From: Actinomycetota bacterium
Lineage (GTDB): Bacteria > Actinomycetota > Thermoleophilia > Gaiellales > Gaiellaceae
DNA length: 63,237 nt
Direction: 5' to 3'
Assembly: GCA_900299235.1 (NCBI GenBank)
Contig: OMIZ01000030.1
Span: 1 to 63,237, forward strand
Part shown: in pieces, positions 1 through 9,690 of the stretch
Layout: each line of letters opens with the position of its first letter
Numbering within the stretch: the first letter of the stretch is position 1
The notes under the pieces: generated by a model
Seen by the model: the letters and a program-made list of their open reading frames with translations, nothing else
Told to the model about the DNA's origin: nothing
The model's database searches: none
Translations under genes and position numbers: made by a program

Positions 1-2
1 AG

Positions 3-689
3 ATCGTTGGGTATGCCGCGGTCGGCGCAGGCGGCGGTCTGATGTTCGCCACAGCCGATCCCGCCGAAGCGTCGGAGTTGCTCGGTGCAGCTCTCACACG
101 CGCGGCGGAACGTAGCGAGACGGCATTGCAGATCATGATCACCGATCATCAGGGCGATCTCGCGGCAGCCGTCGACACGTTCGGCTTCAAACGCCGGCGC
201 TCCGTCGTACGCATGTCGGTCGGAATCCACGACCTCCCCACACGAACGTCGCTTCCCGCGGGCGTGACGTCGCGGACGTACCTGCCCGATGACGCCGCAC
301 GCGTGCACGCGCTGCTCGACCGCGCGTACGAAACGTGGGACACCGACTACGTCCGGGTGAGCCACGACGACTGGGTTGCATGGATGACGAACGACCCGGA
401 GTTCGACGCGACCACCTGGTTCCTCGCTGAACGCGACGGCGCCCTCGTCGGCTGCGCGCTCTGGTGGTCGTCGGGCTGGCTCAAAGATGTCGCCGTCGAG
501 CTGAAGGAACGTGGCAATGGACTCGGCCGGGCCCTCGTGGTGCACGGGCTGCATGAGCTCGCCGGGCGTGGCATCACGAGCGCAGGCCTGAAGGTCGATG
601 GGGCGAACCCGAGCGGGGCCGTCGCGTTGTACGAGAGCCTCGGATTCAGAGCGGTACGCGTCGAGACGCTCTGGTCGCTGCCGCTCTAG
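3..689 (+). CDS. GNAT family N-acetyltransferase, probably 5'-truncated by window edge
   Basis: C-terminal GNAT pattern (VAVELKERGNGLGRALVVHGLHELAGRGITSAGLKVDGANPSGAVALYESLGFRAV). Frame is open upstream of the listed ATG at 42 to the window edge (IVGYAAVGAGGGL). Confidence 0.85.
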   Translation: MVGYAAVGAGGGLMFATADPAEASELLGAALTRAAERSETALQIMITDHQGDLAAAVDTFGFKRRRSVVRMSVGIHDLPTRTSLPAGVTSRTYLPDDAARVHALLDRAYETWDTDYVRVSHDDWVAWMTNDPEFDATTWFLAERDGALVGCALWWSSGWLKDVAVELKERGNGLGRALVVHGLHELAGRGITSAGLKVDGANPSGAVALYESLGFRAVRVETLWSLPL

Positions 690-916
690 GCGGTGCCGCG
701 ACGAACAACCTGCACACCCCACGCCTCACCCGACGCAAAGAGCGTGTCGGTGTCGACTTCGTCGGCCCAGCCGATGAAGTGGCGCTCCGGGTTCGCCTCA
801 GTCGATCCATAGACCGCAGCACGGCCTGCGGCGAGCGGCTTCAACGGATCGTCGCCGCGCTCAAGCGCAGCAAGAGGCTCCTCGACTGCCGATCCCTCCG
901 CGTAGCCCTTTCCCAT
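686..916 (-). CDS. small hypothetical protein (76 aa)
   Basis: ORF filling the gap between the GNAT gene and the tRNA; no recognised domain. Confidence 0.4.
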   Translation of the reverse strand: MGKGYAEGSAVEEPLAALERGDDPLKPLAAGRAAVYGSTEANPERHFIGWADEVDTDTLFASGEAWGVQVVRRGTA

Positions 917-977
917 GACTTCAGTATCGCCCGTTCGTCTACCGTGCCGACGACCGCGACGTACCCTTGTCGCGCGA

Positions 978-1050
978 GGGCCGGTAGCTCAGTTGGCAGA
1001 GCAGGGGACTTTTAATCCCAAGGTCGTGCGTTCGAGCCGCACCCGGCCCA
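978..1050 (+). tRNA. tRNA-Lys (anticodon TTT)
   Basis: Acceptor GGGCCGG (978-984) pairs with CCGGCCC (1043-1049); D-arm GCTC/GAGC; anticodon loop CTTTTAA with TTT at 1011-1013; T-arm GTGCG-TTCGAGC-CGCAC. CCA not encoded. Confidence 0.95.
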
Positions 1051-1052
1051 TT

Positions 1053-1086
1053 CAGAAAATCCCTGCTAAAGGGGTTTTCTGTTTAT
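1053..1086 (+). terminator. Rho-independent terminator-like hairpin after tRNA-Lys
   Basis: CAGAAAATCCC-TGCTAAA-GGGGTTTTCTG stem-loop followed by TTTATC. Confidence 0.7.
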
Positions 1087-1244
1087 CGAGTGATGCGCGG
1101 CGTGGGCTTGGGGGCCACGTGTGGGGCCACATCGGCGACTCGATGCCGTCGCGGGTGTTGGACGTTGGGGGTTTCTGAGGCGGTTCTTTAGCCACCACTC
1201 CGCGTGGTTTGCGTTGTAGAAGGTGAGGGCGCGGGCTAGAGAGG

Positions 1245-1568
1245 TTGCTGGGCTACGGGAGAGGACTTCTGCGCGGGTGTGATTTGGCCTATACGATTTC
1301 GCCTGTGACTACTGTTTCTCGTAAGACCAACTCGCTTCTCAACATTGGATTGTTGATCGGTTCTGTTGAGTTGTTGAAACGGACACCGCGGCCCCTTTCA
1401 ATTCCGTTGCTTGCATTTGTGCTCGCTGTGGGTGCCACATTCGTGATGCTTGTTTTGGCGTGTGTTGAGCTGATTTTTGAACACGCCGGGATCATTGATG
1501 TCGCTCTAATCGCACTGATCGGATGGAAGATACGAAAAGACTTCTATCGCGGTTGGGTGGGGCTCTAG
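1245..1568 (+). CDS. small membrane hypothetical protein
   Basis: Two hydrophobic stretches (PLSIPLLAFVLAVGATFVMLVLACVELIF; IIDVALIALIGW); start codon uncertain (possibly near 1305). Confidence 0.45.
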   Translation: MLGYGRGLLRGCDLAYTISPVTTVSRKTNSLLNIGLLIGSVELLKRTPRPLSIPLLAFVLAVGATFVMLVLACVELIFEHAGIIDVALIALIGWKIRKDFYRGWVGL

Positions 1569-1707
1569 CGGGATCTCCCCCGGCAGGCAGCGCCACAGAC
1601 AACGTGCCTGATGGTGTCTACCCGCTCTACACCCCGTAGCGTCCGGCAGACCACCCTTCCCGTAACCCGCCTGATCGTGAACGATCGGCTGTTCTAAGGC
1701 GTATGCC

Positions 1708-1738
1708 CCCGACAAGAATCGAACTTGTGCACGCGGTT
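1708..1738 (-). repeat. 31-bp direct repeat copy 1; 3' half of a tRNA-Arg(CCT)-like gene (minus strand)
   Basis: cccgacaagaatcgaacttgtgcacgcggtt, identical to 2739-2769. Reverse complement reads ..AACCGCGTGC-ACAAG-TTCGATT-CTTGT-CGGG; this copy continues into a full acceptor strand CGGGGGC+A. Confidence 0.85.
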
Positions 1739-1811
1739 GGGAAATACGTAAATCCGGATTGCCTCCGGAACGAAAGGCCGATCGCGATTCGATATTCTTT
1801 CCGATTGACCG

Positions 1812-2600
1812 ATGTTTGCCGCCCGTCTCTTCGCCATTATTATCGCGGTTCTGTTGGCGGCAAACGGTACGATCGCCGCGACCGTACGTGCGTCTAGCCA
1901 TCCCCACCTAAAGGGGCAGTCGTGCACGTTGCCTGTTGGGGCTAGGCTGGTAGCAGTTCAGCCCACCGTCGCTCCTGGTGAGAAGGCCGTCGTTAGCGGA
2001 GATCACTTTGCCCCAATGTCCAGCATTTCTGTGCAGGTGAGTGGCCGCGAATACAACGCACCCAATTATCGGGTGCGGACAGACGCACATGGGGCTTTCT
2101 TGCTAGGAGTTGCGACGGGGAATACCGTTGGCGATAAGTACCTGTTCTCCGTGACGTGCGGAACGCGGTATGTGTCCGCGTGGGTCGCAGTCGGTGCATC
2201 CAACAGATGCTCGATCTTCCCGGCCGCCATGATCAAAGCCAAGCTTTCGATCTCTGTCGATGCCCCGCGCTTCAAGCGTATCTCGGACAACTTCTTTAGT
2301 TGTATTTATCCGAGGCACGATAGGCCGATTGGCGACCAAGTCGTAATCTCAGTTCGCTCACACTTCTCGAAAGCCGAATTTGCGTCACTACGACGTGTGA
2401 CTGATAACGATCTCGCAAGTACACACGGTACGCCGACAAAGACAATCGCAGATCTCGGAGATGCTGCCTACTGGAGTGTGCAGGGCGGTTTGATCGAAAT
2501 GGATGTGCTGCGAGGTTCGACTGCGATATCCATCGCTGGCCGATTCTCGTTTGAAAGAGGAGTTGACCTGGCAAGATCGGTTATCGAAGCAGCCCCATAG
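1812..2600 (+). CDS. secreted hypothetical protein (262 aa)
   Basis: N-terminal signal peptide (MFAARLFAIIIAVLLAANGTIAA); possible IPT/TIG-like stretch (VQPTVAPGEKAVVSGDHFAPMSSISVQVSG). Confidence 0.6.
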   Translation: MFAARLFAIIIAVLLAANGTIAATVRASSHPHLKGQSCTLPVGARLVAVQPTVAPGEKAVVSGDHFAPMSSISVQVSGREYNAPNYRVRTDAHGAFLLGVATGNTVGDKYLFSVTCGTRYVSAWVAVGASNRCSIFPAAMIKAKLSISVDAPRFKRISDNFFSCIYPRHDRPIGDQVVISVRSHFSKAEFASLRRVTDNDLASTHGTPTKTIADLGDAAYWSVQGGLIEMDVLRGSTAISIAGRFSFERGVDLARSVIEAAP

Positions 2601-2738
2601 ACTGGGCGGCTCCAAAACGAGCAACCGCGGTCTTGGTGACCGGTGACCTAATGCAACCTGCCGAGGGCTTGCGCCCCATGGTGAGCCTGTAAGCGAGCCA
2701 GTCCTCGTACGGCTACTACCGTGCAATTTTCTGTGTTG

Positions 2739-2769
2739 CCCGACAAGAATCGAACTTGTGCACGCGGTT
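2739..2769 (-). repeat. 31-bp direct repeat copy 2; tRNA-Arg(CCT)-like 3' fragment (minus strand)
   Basis: Perfect copy of 1708-1738. The reverse-complement flank adds the anticodon-loop sequence TTTCCTAAACCGC; the acceptor is degenerate after CGGG. Confidence 0.85.
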
Positions 2770-2772
2770 TAG

Positions 2773-3678
2773 GAAACAGCCGGATCGGCCGCGCTCGTCA
2801 TAGCGAACGCCGGCTACTTCCTACCCTACGGCGGCGCTTCGCCGGGTCCGCGGTTCGTCGCGCCCGCACTGCCGTTCCTGTTGCTCGGACTTGTCGAGGC
2901 GTACTCCACGCGGCCGCGGCTGACTGTGCTTCTGTCTGTGATGTCGGGGGCAATGGCAACGGCGGTCGCCCTCACGTGGACGCAAGGCACGATCGTGATG
3001 CGAAACACCGTGTGGGCGGAACTCGCTCGCGCCCCCTTCGCGGGATCGTCGAGCCGCCTTGCTCGGGCGATTCCTCCGAGCATCTTTGGGACGTCATCGC
3101 TCGCGCGGTGGCTTGAGGTCGTCGTGGTCGTCCCCGGGGTCGCCGTCGCCCTTGCGATCGCTGTGCGCGCGCTTCCGCCGCGCGCGATCACCGCCTCGGC
3201 GGCAACTGGGCGGCCGCGACTGGTCGGTGCAGCAGCGGTCGTGGCACTGCTTGTCGCTATCGATGCTGGTGCGGTGCTCGGCTACCCGTCGGGGAACGGG
3301 TATCAACCTCGACGATCGCCGCTCAACGTCGCCGTCTCTGGTTCACCAGCCACGTCCTATCCAGGGGGCGAAGTGAACTACCGAGTCGACGTCACGAATG
3401 AGAGCGACGTCGTACTCCTGCCCGACATGACGCTCACGCTCACCTTGGCACCAGGCATGCACCTCGTAGGTGCACCAAAGCTGCTCACTGGACAGGGCTG
3501 CACCGGGGACGTCGTCGTGCGTTGCCACCTCGACTACCTCGCGCCGCGCCAGCCGACCACGCTGTGGTTCGGAATCCAGTTCTCCGAGCCCGGCATCCAC
3601 CGTTTGCTCGCACGGTCCTCATCGAACGGCTTCGAGGGCCCTCCCGCGACCGCATTCGACGTGCCGGTCGGTAGCTAG
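2773..3678 (+). pseudogene. 5'-truncated membrane protein gene (multi-TM glycosyltransferase-like C-terminus plus a DUF11-like domain)
   Basis: Open frame from just after an in-frame TAG at 2770-2772 (ETAGSAALVIANAGYFLPYGGASPGPRFVAPALPFLLLGLVEA...), continuing through the listed ORF 2881-3678. No convincing start codon or RBS near the repeat; TTG 2881 is the only listed start. Confidence 0.55.
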
Positions 3679-3788
3679 CTCGACCCCACGGGCGACTGTG
3701 TGTAAGGAGCGCGAGAGATCGCAGGCAGCGGTCTCACGGGGCCGCTCTCATCGGTAGCTCATCCAATCGCGACAGAGTCACGGAGTAG

Positions 3789-5798
3789 ATGATCCATGAA
3801 CGCGCGACGGCAGGCCCGAAGCGCCGAGGTAGCTTGCTCTGCGCTGTCTGCATTTGCGGGGCAATCGCGGTCGCCGCGCAGGCCTCCGCGGCAGCCACAG
3901 CCCCTCGCAGGCTCCACGAACGCATCACAGCGCACCTCCCAGCGGCGCTACAGGATCCATCCGCAGCGGTATCGCGGGGGCGCGTCTTTCTTCTCGGCGG
4001 ACTCACAGGCGCGGACACATCGACCGACCAGATCGTGGTCGCCACCTCAACGGGGGCGCACGTCGGCGGGTATCTGCCGTCAGCCCGCCATGACACGGCG
4101 GCAGCGACGCTCGGTGGCAACGTCTATCTCTTCGGGGGCGGGAACGCGACCCAGATCGACGAGATCGTTCGCATCAATCCCCACACCGGCGCCACGGCGA
4201 TCGTCGGCCACTTGCCAGCGCCGAGCTCCGACTCGGCAGCAGCTGTTGTCGGCGATACCGCGTACATCATTGGTGGGTACACCGGCACGCGCTGGCTCGA
4301 CACAGTCATCGCCTGGCGAACTGGCCATACCCCGAAGGTTGTCGGGCACCTTCCGGCGGCGCTGCGCTACGCGGCTGTGACCGCGGTTCACGGGAAGGTG
4401 ATCATCGCGGGCGGCTCGCTGCCAGACGGCACAGCGAGTTCTGCGGTACTGCGCTTCGATCCCACAACCAGCACCGTTTCTCGCATCGGAGCACTGCCAG
4501 CGCCAACGACACACGCTGCCGCTGCGGCACTCGGCGGGATCGCCTACGTCATCGGTGGGCGCGGGGCGACAACTGGCACCGTCGTCGCGACGATCACGGC
4601 GATCAACCCGGCAACACGCACGGTAACGAGTGCGGGCAGCCTTCTGAGCGCAACCTCCGATCTCGCTGCCGCGACGCTCGGCGATCGAATTCTCATTGCA
4701 GGAGGGAGGACAGCGGCGGGCACGCAATCAACCATTGGGGTGCTCACTCCGACGGCAAGCCGCACCACACAAAGTGCGCGCGCGCCTCGCACTGCGTCGC
4801 TCAACATCTACGCACACGATGGCGTCGGGATGCTCCGCGGGGCCGCCCGCACTGCGCTCCAGCGGATCTACGTTCCAAACAGCGAGAGCAACACCGTCGA
4901 CGTCATCGATCCGAAGACCTACAAGATCGTCGGCCACTTCGGGGTCGGGCGCCTGCCACAACACGTCGTCCCCGCATGGGATCTGAAAACGCTGTACGTC
5001 ACAAACGACCTCGGCAACTCGCTCACGCCGATCGATCCCCGAACGGGCCGGCCCGGCACGCCGATTCCGGTCGATGACCCCTACAACATGTATTTCACCC
5101 CCAACGGGAAGTACGCGATCGTCGTGGCCGAACGATTGCACCGCCTCGACTTTCGCAACGCCCACACGTTTCATCTGAGCCACTCGCTGACGGTTCCCTG
5201 CAGCGGGGTCGACCACATGGACTTCACCGCCAACGGGCGGTACCTGCTTGCGAGCTGCGAGTTCTCAGGCGAAATGCTCAAAGTGAACGTCGCAACCCAG
5301 CGCGTCGCCGGCACGGTGCGCCTGCCCGACTATCCGGCCGGAATGCCCCAAGACGTGAAGCTCTCGCCCGACGGGCGCGTCTTCTACGTCGCGGACATGC
5401 ATGCGAGCGGCGTGTGGGAGATTGACGCAACGCACTTCCACGTCCTGAAGTTCCTGGCCACCGGCGCTGGCACCCACGGTCTCTACGTGAGTCGAAATAC
5501 CCGCGATCTGTACATCACCAACCGCGGCGAAGGCTCGATCTCCGTGCTCAACTTCGCCACCCGAAGGCTCGTCGCCAAGTGGCGGCTGCCGGGCGGCGGG
5601 AGCCCAGACATGGGTGGCGTGTCAGCCGACGGAAAGGTGCTGTGGCTCTCTGGGCGCTACAGCGGAGTCGTCTACGCGATCTCAACGAGCGACGGAAAGC
5701 TGCTCGCGAAGATCCCCGTCGGCAGTAGCCCCCACGGGCTTTGTGTCTGGCCCCAGCCCGGCCGCTACTCCCTCGGGCACACCGGAATTCTTCGGTAA
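3789..5798 (+). CDS. secreted double beta-propeller protein: Kelch-type N-half plus YVTN-type C-half
   Basis: Repeated Kelch blades (VFLLGG, VYLFGGG, AYIIGGY, VIIAGGS, AYVIGGR, ILIAGGR), then YVTN-like blades (RIYVPNSESNTVDVIDPKTYKIVGHFGVG; LYITNRGEGSISVLNFATRRLVAKW). Confidence 0.85.
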   Translation: MIHERATAGPKRRGSLLCAVCICGAIAVAAQASAAATAPRRLHERITAHLPAALQDPSAAVSRGRVFLLGGLTGADTSTDQIVVATSTGAHVGGYLPSARHDTAAATLGGNVYLFGGGNATQIDEIVRINPHTGATAIVGHLPAPSSDSAAAVVGDTAYIIGGYTGTRWLDTVIAWRTGHTPKVVGHLPAALRYAAVTAVHGKVIIAGGSLPDGTASSAVLRFDPTTSTVSRIGALPAPTTHAAAAALGGIAYVIGGRGATTGTVVATITAINPATRTVTSAGSLLSATSDLAAATLGDRILIAGGRTAAGTQSTIGVLTPTASRTTQSARAPRTASLNIYAHDGVGMLRGAARTALQRIYVPNSESNTVDVIDPKTYKIVGHFGVGRLPQHVVPAWDLKTLYVTNDLGNSLTPIDPRTGRPGTPIPVDDPYNMYFTPNGKYAIVVAERLHRLDFRNAHTFHLSHSLTVPCSGVDHMDFTANGRYLLASCEFSGEMLKVNVATQRVAGTVRLPDYPAGMPQDVKLSPDGRVFYVADMHASGVWEIDATHFHVLKFLATGAGTHGLYVSRNTRDLYITNRGEGSISVLNFATRRLVAKWRLPGGGSPDMGGVSADGKVLWLSGRYSGVVYAISTSDGKLLAKIPVGSSPHGLCVWPQPGRYSLGHTGILR

Positions 5799-5811
5799 TC
5801 CCGCCTGAGGC

Positions 5812-7134
5812 TTACCGCGACAGCGCCCACGCATGCTCAAGCGCGGCCGCGGTCTTCAGCGGTGCATTGAGCACTGGGCGATAGCCACGAATCGTCGCTG
5901 GCACGAGCCGTGCTCCGGCCACGCCGCGAGCGTCGAGCGCAACAAGCAACACGCCTGTCTTGGTCGCTGCCCCAACCGACGGGAACACGAAGTTGCCAAG
6001 GCTCCACGCAACGGCTGTGTGTCGCTTGCGCTCCAACGGCTGCAGTACGTGCGGGTGTGCACCAAGCACCAAAGACGCGCCAGCGCGCAGGGCCGTCTCG
6101 GCGAGTAGCGCCTGCCGGGCATCCGGCCGATGGGCGCTCTGGACTCCCCAGTGGAACCACACGACAACGACGTCGGCGTGCTTGCGCGCCTGGGCGACAT
6201 CCGCGCTGACGTAACTCGACTCGGCGGGTGCGGCACCGGGCGTGGCAGACCCTGCGTCAAAGCCTGCCGGGCGAATGTCGGTGTACCCGAGCAGCGCGAC
6301 ACGCAGTCCACCAACACGAACGATCACAGGCCGTCGCGCCTGGGCAAGGGTCGCACCACCCCCGATTGAGCGCACGTGCACCTGGCGTACAGCGCTCAGC
6401 GTTGCAAGCAGCCCGGGCCGGCCGAAGTCGAGACTGTGGTTGTTCGCAACCGTCACAACGTCCAGTCCACCCGCCGTCGCGGCGCCGCGAAGGAACCGGG
6501 TGCTGCCGCGGAAGTGGTACTGCTTGTCCGGCACCGGCTTGCCGACACTCGCGATGGCGCCCTCGAGATTCGCGGTCGCAATGTCGGCGCTCCGCAACAG
6601 CTTGCCGACACCTGCCCATGCGTACCCAGGGGCCACCGCGTGCGAGCTCACGGCGTCGCTTACGCCCTCCCCAGGCGTCACGTCGCCAACGGCAGCGAGG
6701 CGGATTGGACGAACGAGAAGATCACCAGCGGGGAACACGCGACCGCCCGCTCTGATCGCCACGGCCACCTGCCCGGCACCGCTCAACGGCGCGGCGATGA
6801 CAAACTTGCCGCCTGGCCCGGCGGTCACAGCGGCGGCTCGACGCCCTCCAACCGTCAGCGAAACACGCACCCGCGGCCGCGTCCATCCCTGCAACGAAAG
6901 CGTCGCGCCTGGCGCGAGCCAGGCCGGCAGCTTTGAGGTGAGCTGCACGGACACGGGCGCCGACGTCGGCGTCGTCTCAGCCACGCTCGTGGCGGTAGCC
7001 GTGCGTCGATGGGTGCTCCGCTCGGCGAGCACAAGCGCGACACCAGCAACGACCACGAGAAGCCCCGCGATCAGTAGCAGCCGCCACGGCAGCGGCTTTG
7101 ACGGCGCATGCTCAGGCGAATCGTCCATCACCAC
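5812..7134 (-). CDS. CapA family (poly-gamma-glutamate biosynthesis-type) metallophosphatase-fold protein
   Basis: AAVGDVTPGEGVSD, ANLEGAIASVGKPVPDKQYHFRGSTRFLRG, VANNHSLDFG, VVVWFHWGVQ, LVLGAHPHVLQPLE; N-terminal TM anchor. Confidence 0.9.
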   Translation of the reverse strand: MVMDDSPEHAPSKPLPWRLLLIAGLLVVVAGVALVLAERSTHRRTATATSVAETTPTSAPVSVQLTSKLPAWLAPGATLSLQGWTRPRVRVSLTVGGRRAAAVTAGPGGKFVIAAPLSGAGQVAVAIRAGGRVFPAGDLLVRPIRLAAVGDVTPGEGVSDAVSSHAVAPGYAWAGVGKLLRSADIATANLEGAIASVGKPVPDKQYHFRGSTRFLRGAATAGGLDVVTVANNHSLDFGRPGLLATLSAVRQVHVRSIGGGATLAQARRPVIVRVGGLRVALLGYTDIRPAGFDAGSATPGAAPAESSYVSADVAQARKHADVVVVWFHWGVQSAHRPDARQALLAETALRAGASLVLGAHPHVLQPLERKRHTAVAWSLGNFVFPSVGAATKTGVLLVALDARGVAGARLVPATIRGYRPVLNAPLKTAAALEHAWALSR

Positions 7135-7202
7135 ACCGTAGTGCAGCCACCGGAAGGCCCGACGATGGAGGTTGAGCTACACCGCGTGACCGGCCGCCAG
7201 GA

Positions 7203-8384
7203 TCAACGCGGCACGACGTTCCGTTCCGGATGAGGCTCAAGCAAGATCAGCACCAGGACGGCCGTCATCGCCACGGGCAAGACCCAGAAGGCCGTTGCAT
7301 AGCCGGCGGCGCTCGCGACAAGCCCGATGAAGATGCCGCCGAGCCCGACACCGAAGTCGATTGCGATATTCCATGCTGTTGTCGGAACGGCAAACGAATC
7401 GGTCGACCAGCGCGACAACATGTCGAGCTGCGACGAGGTTGCGAGCAGCCCGTAGCCAAGCCCAAAGAGGAGGCCCGCAGCGACGACCGGCCACCAGGCG
7501 TGGTTGCCTGAGGCGAGCAGCACGAGACCGAGCAACGATGACACGGAGCCCGGGACGACGAGCCGTCGTGCTCCGTAGCGATCAACCAGGCGCCCGCCTC
7601 CCCACCGCGCGAGGTACGCGAGCGTGCCGAAGACGAGTAGGTAGGTCGAGGCGGAGGCGAGTCCGCCATGAATCAGCCACAGGGGAACAAAGCTCACTGC
7701 GGCGCCACGAGTGAGGCTGACGATCAGAAACCAGCCAAAGGGCCACCGCAGCGCTGGCCCAGCGATTGCGCGAAGGAGCCCTTTGGGACGCGGGCGGCCG
7801 GCGGCCGGTCGGGAGTGCAGCGCGAGCGAAAGAACCGCGCCGACTACTCCGACCGCACCCGCCGCAAGGAACGCAGTGCGCGCCCCAAGACCATCGAGGA
7901 GCCAAAGGCCAGTGGCAGGCGCGAATACCGGCGGAATCCCTGCGAGGAGTCCCGACATGCCGAGCACGGTGCCGCGGCGTTCAGGCGGTGCGAGCTGAGC
8001 AGCGAGCGTCCCGACGGCAACCGTTGCGATACCAAAGCCGATTCCGCGCAGCGCGGTCGTTGCCAGGACAAGGCCAAGACTGTTCGGCGCAGCCGCATAG
8101 AGCGCGCACGGCAGCCCAAGCAACGAGAACGCCGCGACAAGCACCCAGCGAGCTCGCACACGATTCATCACCCACGGCATCTGCAACTGCGTCGCAACGG
8201 CGGGGAAGTAGAAGCAGCCGGTCACGAGACCTGCAGCGCCTGATCCTCCGCTACGCCCCGCCACGACCGGCAGCACCGACACGAGGCCCGTGGTGTTCGT
8301 AAAGAGCAGAAACACCCCCGCGAGCACGAATACGAGGTCACGGGTCCAGAGCCGCTCGCCTTCCACTCGTTGAGTCTTACGCAC
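7203..8384 (-). CDS. MFS transporter
   Basis: About 12 TM segments and MFS-type loops; listed ORF extends to 8516 but a GTG near 8384 (or 8366) is the likelier start. Confidence 0.85.
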   Translation of the reverse strand: MRKTQRVEGERLWTRDLVFVLAGVFLLFTNTTGLVSVLPVVAGRSGGSGAAGLVTGCFYFPAVATQLQMPWVMNRVRARWVLVAAFSLLGLPCALYAAAPNSLGLVLATTALRGIGFGIATVAVGTLAAQLAPPERRGTVLGMSGLLAGIPPVFAPATGLWLLDGLGARTAFLAAGAVGVVGAVLSLALHSRPAAGRPRPKGLLRAIAGPALRWPFGWFLIVSLTRGAAVSFVPLWLIHGGLASASTYLLVFGTLAYLARWGGGRLVDRYGARRLVVPGSVSSLLGLVLLASGNHAWWPVVAAGLLFGLGYGLLATSSQLDMLSRWSTDSFAVPTTAWNIAIDFGVGLGGIFIGLVASAAGYATAFWVLPVAMTAVLVLILLEPHPERNVVPR

Positions 8385-8482
8385 TCCTCTAACGCTGTGG
8401 GGTTGTGACCTCCCGACGGTTGTAGACTCGGCTGTCGCGCTGGCGAGACACCCAGCCAAGGCCGAGCGAGAGGGGGCAGAAG

Positions 8483-8782
8483 ATGACGATCGTCGTAACC
8501 GTGCGCATCGAGGCAACGCAGGAGCAGCTTGCCGCGGCCGACCGTGCAGAGCCTGGCCTCTACGACGAGATCATCGCGCTCGCGCACCAGTACGGGATGC
8601 TTTCGCACCGCCGGGTGTACCGCGACGATGCCGTGATGGATATCGACGAGTGGCCGAGCGAGGAGGCACGCGACGCTTTCCGTGTTGCTGCCCAGCCGCT
8701 GCTCGCACGCATGGGCGCTGCTCGCGGGACGAAACCAAGCGCGGCCGAAGTGTGGCGCGACCTGCCCGGGTCGAAGCACTGA
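8483..8782 (+). CDS. small dimeric alpha/beta-barrel-like protein (antibiotic biosynthesis monooxygenase/NIPSNAP-like)
   Basis: MTIVVTVRIEATQEQLAAADRAEPG... short ferredoxin-like pattern; RBS-like GAGAGGG upstream. Confidence 0.55.
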   Translation: MTIVVTVRIEATQEQLAAADRAEPGLYDEIIALAHQYGMLSHRRVYRDDAVMDIDEWPSEEARDAFRVAAQPLLARMGAARGTKPSAAEVWRDLPGSKH

Positions 8783-9690
8783 ACGGCCGTCTCGATCCGC
8801 TCGACGAGTCGAAGCTCGGCGAGGTTGTCGTCAACGGCATTCGTACCCGCACCTACATCGACGGGCCGGAGGGGGCACCGATCCTTGTGTTGCTCCACGG
8901 CGGCGACTTCGGCCACGACACCGCGCTCGACTGCTTCAGTTTCGTGCTGCCGCTGTTTGCGGCGCGCTACCGGGTGATCGCGTTCGATCGCCTGGGGCAG
9001 GGGTACACCGACAACCCGCCCGATGATTCGGGCTTCACGATCGACGGGCTCATGGAACACACGCACGCCGTTCTCGACGCTTTGTGCCCCGGGCCGGTGC
9101 ACCTCGTCGGGCATTCGCGCGGGGGGTTTGTCGCCACGCGAGTCGCCGTCGAGCGACCCGAGCGCGTCAGCTCGCTCACGATCGTCGATAGCAACACGAC
9201 CGCCCCAGAGGATCCGACCTTCCCGAGCGGGCAGTTCTACCGTGATCTCGAGGCACGGATGCCACCAGGGCCACCATCGCTCGCATCAGTGCGGATTGAG
9301 CCGGACGCGCAGGCCTACGACCCGACAAGCGTCACCGCCGCGTTCCTCGACCGGATGTTGGCCATCGCGCAGCTCCCGATCCGCCAGGAGGGTGCACGAC
9401 GCCTTGAAACCGCTGACGGTGCGATCTGGCGGCCAAGCCTGAACGTTCGGCGCGAAGAGACGCTGCGCGTCTTTGACGAGCATGGGCTTGCGGTGCCGAC
9501 TCTCGTGCTCTGGAGCCGAGATGATCCGTCTGCTCCGCTTCGCCTTGGGTACGCGTTGTACGAGCGCATCGCCGCGAAAACAGCAGATGCGCGGCTCCAC
9601 GTCCTCAACCGGTCGGGCCACTATCCGTTCCGCGATCGACCGACCTCGTTCGTCGCGGCAGTCGCATCGTTTGTGGAATCCGTCGCCTAG
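8752..9690 (+). CDS. alpha/beta hydrolase
   Basis: LVLLHGGDFGHD, nucleophile elbow GHSRGG, C-terminal HYPFRDRP; GTG 8752 start overlaps the previous ORF (listed ORF begins 8650). Confidence 0.9.
   Translation: MARPARVEALNGRLDPLDESKLGEVVVNGIRTRTYIDGPEGAPILVLLHGGDFGHDTALDCFSFVLPLFAARYRVIAFDRLGQGYTDNPPDDSGFTIDGLMEHTHAVLDALCPGPVHLVGHSRGGFVATRVAVERPERVSSLTIVDSNTTAPEDPTFPSGQFYRDLEARMPPGPPSLASVRIEPDAQAYDPTSVTAAFLDRMLAIAQLPIRQEGARRLETADGAIWRPSLNVRREETLRVFDEHGLAVPTLVLWSRDDPSAPLRLGYALYERIAAKTADARLHVLNRSGHYPFRDRPTSFVAAVASFVESVA

Follow-up and report, generated by a model that had tools for sequence, protein, structure and literature searches.

Two exact copies of a short, tRNA-like sequence lie about 1 kb apart near one end of a 63,237-nucleotide contig (hereafter the window) from an actinobacterial genome. 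They raise the question of whether they are scars of site-specific integration and, if so, what the DNA between them represents. A sequence-only reading had proposed that the repeats are 3' halves of tRNA-Arg(CCT) acting as att scars, with the intervening DNA as leftover cargo of an integrative element. The genome is a metagenome bin of 2.1 Mb in 186 contigs, 88% complete and with 6% contamination. The closest relatives hit were other metagenome bins, assigned to Actinomycetota and Thermoleophilia; one of them bears the name Candidatus Gaiellasilicea.

Two tRNA fragments in the window

The 31-bp direct repeat was found to be exact at both positions (1708-1738 and 2739-2769, 1031 bp from start to start), with no other exact copy in the window. 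In 100 shuffles of the sequence it was matched 0 times, even with 3 mismatches allowed; by chance, no match would be expected. On the minus strand, the 31-mer begins on the 3' side of the anticodon loop, takes in the variable loop and T-arm, and reaches into the acceptor stem. Copy 2 retains the anticodon-loop part TTTCCTAAACC and lacks the acceptor end (CGGG followed by CAACAC), while copy 1 has the acceptor end CGGGGGCA and an anticodon loop reading TTTCCC followed by AACC. ARAGORN and Rfam called no tRNA at either copy and recognized tRNA-Lys(TTT), at 978-1050, as the sole tRNA gene in the window. The AT-richer character ascribed to the DNA between them was likewise recovered (GC 0.56 versus 0.66 for the whole window). 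The features of the locus are as follows.

978-1050, plus strand: intact tRNA-Lys(TTT), left neighbour of the insertion (ARAGORN, Rfam; syntenic in relatives G007 and G010)
1052-3786, no strand: 2.7-kb interval missing from relative G010 (blastn, window 1-9000 against L105)
1052-1582, no strand: AT-richer segment (GC 0.55) with a 107-aa open frame at 1245-1568; no relative found
1583-1707, minus strand: P'-like element arm beside core 1, with 95-97% identity (blastn) to contigs C166, next to the intact tRNA-Arg, and C129
1708-1738, minus strand: putative att core copy 1, 3' half of tRNA-Arg(CCT), joining the 1-kb unit to the P'-like arm
1739-2738, no strand: 1000-bp unit (1031 bp with one core), GC 0.56, whose in silico removal restores a C129-type junction
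1812-2600, plus strand: sole 262-aa open frame of the unit, with a signal-peptide-like N-terminus; no relative found
2739-2769, minus strand: putative att core copy 2, 3' half of tRNA-Arg(CCT), joining the P-like arm to the 1-kb unit
2770-2785, minus strand: P-like arm of 16 bp, including the anticodon-loop bases atccggctgtttccta (minus strand), identical to C129:31-46
2782-3678, plus strand: 5'-truncated membrane-protein gene, matching residues 315-602 of a 614-aa relative

tRNA-Arg(CCT) as the source of the repeats

Of the four copies of the 31-mer present in the genome, two are those of the window, a third is at C129:47-77 and the fourth lies within the tRNA-Arg(CCT) at C166:328-399. The latter is the only intact tRNA-Arg(CCT) found in this genome, and the fragments are identical to its 3' part; an intact gene with the same 3' half had been named beforehand as a check on the tRNA origin. 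Synteny with G007 places C166 on the 5' side and C129 on the 3' side of tRNA-Arg(CCT), indicating that the tRNA-Arg locus of this genome has an island of its own. No exact copy of the 31-mer was detected in viral contigs. In addition, the att core on C129 (L037:31-110) lies between the two arms of a 9-bp inverted repeat, CCGGCTGTT / AACAGCCGG. These arms are possibly integrase arm or core binding sites, and the right arm could alternatively form part of a hairpin.

Relatives of the same family (Gaiella-like Thermoleophilia) also carry an intact tRNA-Arg(CCT) together with 3' fragments. The 31-mer was found with up to 3 mismatches in 11 of 41 genomes searched, and the core part of a longer query was matched in 38 of 103 family genomes, a count that includes intact tRNA genes. 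Nearly all fragments start at the anticodon loop (TTCCTA) and stop at the discriminator (GGCA), with looser ends in two fragments of G090 and one of G112. Within the genus, fragments and intact tRNA share the stretch TTCCTAAACCGC...GGGGGCA and little or nothing outside it; in other genera, the fragments bear the variants of their own tRNA, for instance ACTGGTTCGATTCCGG in G050 and AACCGTGAGCGCAAG in G060. Core pairs on the same contig lie 1.0 to 18.7 kb apart, always in identical orientation, and the fragment is located 3' of the intact tRNA wherever both share a contig.

In five of these genomes (G002, G012, G060, G084 and G101), a tyrosine integrase is encoded between tRNA and fragment, which is the classic arrangement of islands that target tRNA genes (PMC4383910). 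The enzymes fall into two groups, G002/G084/G060 (45-77% identical) and G012/G101 (about 50%), with 26-31% identity between groups. Further copies flanking a larger island, anticipated by the sequence-only reading, are thereby found around integrase-bearing elements. Because the fragments track the tRNA of each genome and an integrase lies between tRNA and fragment in five of them, the repeats are interpreted as att cores. Judged from sequence, the tRNA-Arg(CCT) 3' halves appear to be the cores of tyrosine-integrase elements that target the part of the gene from the anticodon loop to the 3' end, and the proposed att scars hold on both counts, since the intact tRNA contains the 31-mer and its counterparts flank integrases in relatives. 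Four copies in one genome might also be expected of a dispersed repeat family, or of chance tRNA-like sequence unrelated to integration. Such an origin is scarcely credible: it is contradicted by the co-variation of the fragments with the tRNA of each host genome, and by their shared endpoints, shared orientation and flanking integrases.

Several further observations concern this tRNA gene in relatives. In G113, a displaced att fragment (L155:13166-13237) was called by ARAGORN as a second tRNA-Arg(CCT); its 5' part is unlike the intact gene, and the call is probably false. Fragment pairs with no intact tRNA nearby occur in G003 (L060:4960-10368, 5.4 kb) and G112 (L154:4587-9291, 4.7 kb) and are possibly further array units or displaced copies. 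In G050, a 2.0-kb unit at tRNA-Arg(CCT) holds one main ORF, in which a vanadium chloroperoxidase domain is matched only weakly and below the cut-off; the unit is a possible further case of a small insertion at this gene.

An insertion beside tRNA-Lys

When window positions 1-9000 were compared by blastn with the corresponding locus of G010 (L105), window 178-1051 aligned to 5241-6132 and 3787-5142 to 6221-7576, which are adjoining stretches in the relative. About 90 bp separate tRNA-Lys from a kelch gene in G010, compared with 2.7 kb in the window. This relative therefore offers the empty site that had been suggested for comparison, as its locus lacks the 2.7-kb insertion. The position of the repeats is nevertheless unusual. 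In the pairs of relatives, and by synteny for C166/C129, a fragment in the same orientation lies downstream of its cognate tRNA, whereas in the window the fragments lie beside tRNA-Lys. The interpretation of the site as att scars is retained, but the scars are ectopic, beside tRNA-Lys and away from the tRNA-Arg locus.

An element targeting tRNA-Lys itself was considered and ruled against, since a search for a tRNA-Lys 3' fragment that would mark such an element found the tRNA-Lys 3' end only in the gene itself. The 531-bp segment at 1052-1582 had no relative in the 103 family genomes and no second copy in this genome, and the insertion DNA gave no match to plasmids. Directly 3' of tRNA-Lys, the stretch 1052-1300 contains a terminator-like hairpin at about 1055-1080, as well as GGGGCCACGTGTGGGGCCACAT. 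At the other side of the insertion lies the truncated membrane-protein gene; a search of this genome for its N-terminal half gave no match. The final part of this gene is present in G010, directly before the gene corresponding to that at window position 5812, suggesting that the membrane-protein gene is probably native to the region and was cut by the insertion event.

A probable discrete unit within an older junction

Read on the minus strand, the order of parts is P-like arm, core 2, 1000 bp, core 1 and P'-like arm (about 125 bp). Window 2739-2785 matches C129 exactly over 47 bp (blastn). Full copies of the P'-like arm were found at three places only in the 103 family genomes, namely the window, C166 and C129. 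The arm follows the intact tRNA in C166 too, and the DNA beyond it differs at all three places, indicating that it is the end of an element rather than original chromosomal flank. When the window was joined without 1739-2769, it aligned with C129:31-194 over 164 bp at 97% identity and with no gap. C129 thus represents an unoccupied paralogous junction in the same genome. Since removal restores this gap-free match, the 1-kb segment looks like a discrete, integrase-less unit. The earlier suggestion that the segment is a remnant of an integrative element can be kept in part: rather than random leftover cargo, it is best read as a 1031-bp unit within an older att junction. Mobility of the unit is suggested by this one unoccupied paralogue.

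The unit carries a single ORF of 262 aa, a length reached in 1 of 1000 first-order Markov sequences of the same length and composition. Its product is possibly secreted, based on a signal peptide judged by eye. No relative was found in the genus, viral contigs, phages, Pfam, PHROGs, NCBIfam or PDB, and the predicted structure (pLDDT 35) was too low in confidence for use. At its two ends, the unit resembles the P and P' arms weakly or not at all.

No integrase was found in the window insertion or on C166 and C129, the two ends of the tRNA-Arg island, in this fragmented bin, while the elements of five relatives contain one. The gap that the assembly leaves between C166 and C129 may hold the cognate integrase or the parent element. 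Apart from Xer enzymes, a single integrase was found in the genome, on C150; it shares about 27% identity with those of the related elements, sits on a contig that also bears tmRNA, and is not favoured as the cognate enzyme. On C150 (L082, 1369-10825), the tmRNA gene is followed by the integrase-domain ORF at 8460-9488, and a nucleotidyltransferase-like ORF of defence systems (5880-6779), an HNH-type protein and a metallopeptidase were recognized by eye. The tmRNA 3' end is unrepeated within the stretch examined, which is possibly a tmRNA-associated defence island.

Proposed explanation and alternatives

Altogether, the repeats are most likely att cores between which a 1031-bp integrase-less unit was inserted site-specifically, in trans, into an ectopic junction beside tRNA-Lys. 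The target would have been a pre-existing junction of P arm, core and P' arm at this position. A small unit consisting of one gene and an att core, and lacking its own integrase, would have recombined through its core with that of the junction, the integrase being supplied in trans, so as to leave one core on each side; this order of events is the one we infer. The outer arm of the junction abuts the gene that lost its N-terminal half. The junction itself may have reached the tRNA-Lys locus through secondary-site integration followed by deletion, or through rearrangement.

The truncated neighbour, the lack of an integrase in the insertion and the single ORF without a relative would suit a decayed island, in which the tRNA halves are real att scars and the 1-kb segment is the deletion remnant of a larger element, never a mobile unit. 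This is improbable, as excision of exactly one core plus 1 kb regenerates a sequence that aligns with C129 through the junction without gaps, and a series of deletions is not expected to keep both edge cores intact while recreating a site present elsewhere. Far less probable still is an assembly chimera, with pieces of the tRNA-Arg island falsely joined into contig C30. The fragmentation and contamination of the binned metagenome, together with the threefold presence in the genome of the arm beside core 1, could favour such an artefact. However, two false joins would be required, no second copy of the left 531 bp exists in the genome, and in G010 the GNAT gene and tRNA-Lys of the left flank directly neighbour the kelch gene of the right, so that the flanks belong together.

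Site-specific insertion in trans, the preferred explanation, may be extended to a bolder and rather speculative one. In Gaiella-like bacteria, tRNA-Arg(CCT) halves might join integron-like one-gene cassettes. Integrases that target tRNA genes would move these cassettes in trans, and the system could carry att junctions to places beyond the tRNA gene. The 2.0-kb unit of G050 with its one main gene, and the three units of this genome with the same arm and different cargo, are compatible with this idea.

Comparison with known systems

For this uncultured family of actinobacteria, tRNA-Arg(CCT) is documented here as a hot spot of integration that serves integrases of at least two clades. The window adds a very small unit, lacking an integrase, that occupies an att junction at a distance from the tRNA gene. 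The tRNA-targeted islands catalogued by Islander share the 3' tRNA fragment, the anticodon-centred crossover and the same orientation, and in relatives also the integrase between tRNA and fragment; in the window, by contrast, no cognate tRNA lies upstream of the fragments, and an integrase is missing (PMC4383910). The interval in the window is 1 kb, compared with a lower limit of 2 kb in the Islander search, and units this small would be missed by it (PMC4383910).

The name CIME is given to units that have att sites at their ends and lack an integrase (PMC7563491). CIMEs and microCIMEs, with their tandem accretion, resemble the present case in being integrase-less, att-bounded and adjoined by units with the same sites (PMC7563491), as do the integrase-less ssrA islands of Dehalococcoides, which are bounded by att cores beside units with the same sites (PMC3146451). 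The window unit likewise has att sites at both ends (identical 31-bp cores whose C129-type junction is restored by removal) and no integrase or transfer genes, its one 262-aa ORF being without family matches. It differs from both in having only one gene, in lying off the usual tRNA locus and in having no ICE/IME link found. Since CIMEs are defined as decay products of an ICE or IME (PMC7563491), it is relevant that no parent ICE or IME of the 1-kb unit was identified in an assembly with a gap between C166 and C129.

In freshwater Methylophilaceae, additive flexible genomic islands are bounded by repeated tRNA-Lys 3' ends and range from 330 bp upwards (PMC10872708). They are alike in using repeated tRNA 3' ends as boundaries and in holding one or more genes of mostly unknown function; the present case differs in its tRNA-Arg(CCT), longer core, phylum and copy outside the tRNA locus (PMC10872708). 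Integron gene cassettes are similarly one-gene units joined at short recombination sites, although the junctions in the window are tRNA-Arg halves, apparently distinct from attC, and no integron integrase was identified, the one non-Xer integrase found being the C150 enzyme described above. The 1-kb unit is thus a small, displaced representative of a known kind, with CIMEs and additive tRNA-repeat islands as its closest counterparts.
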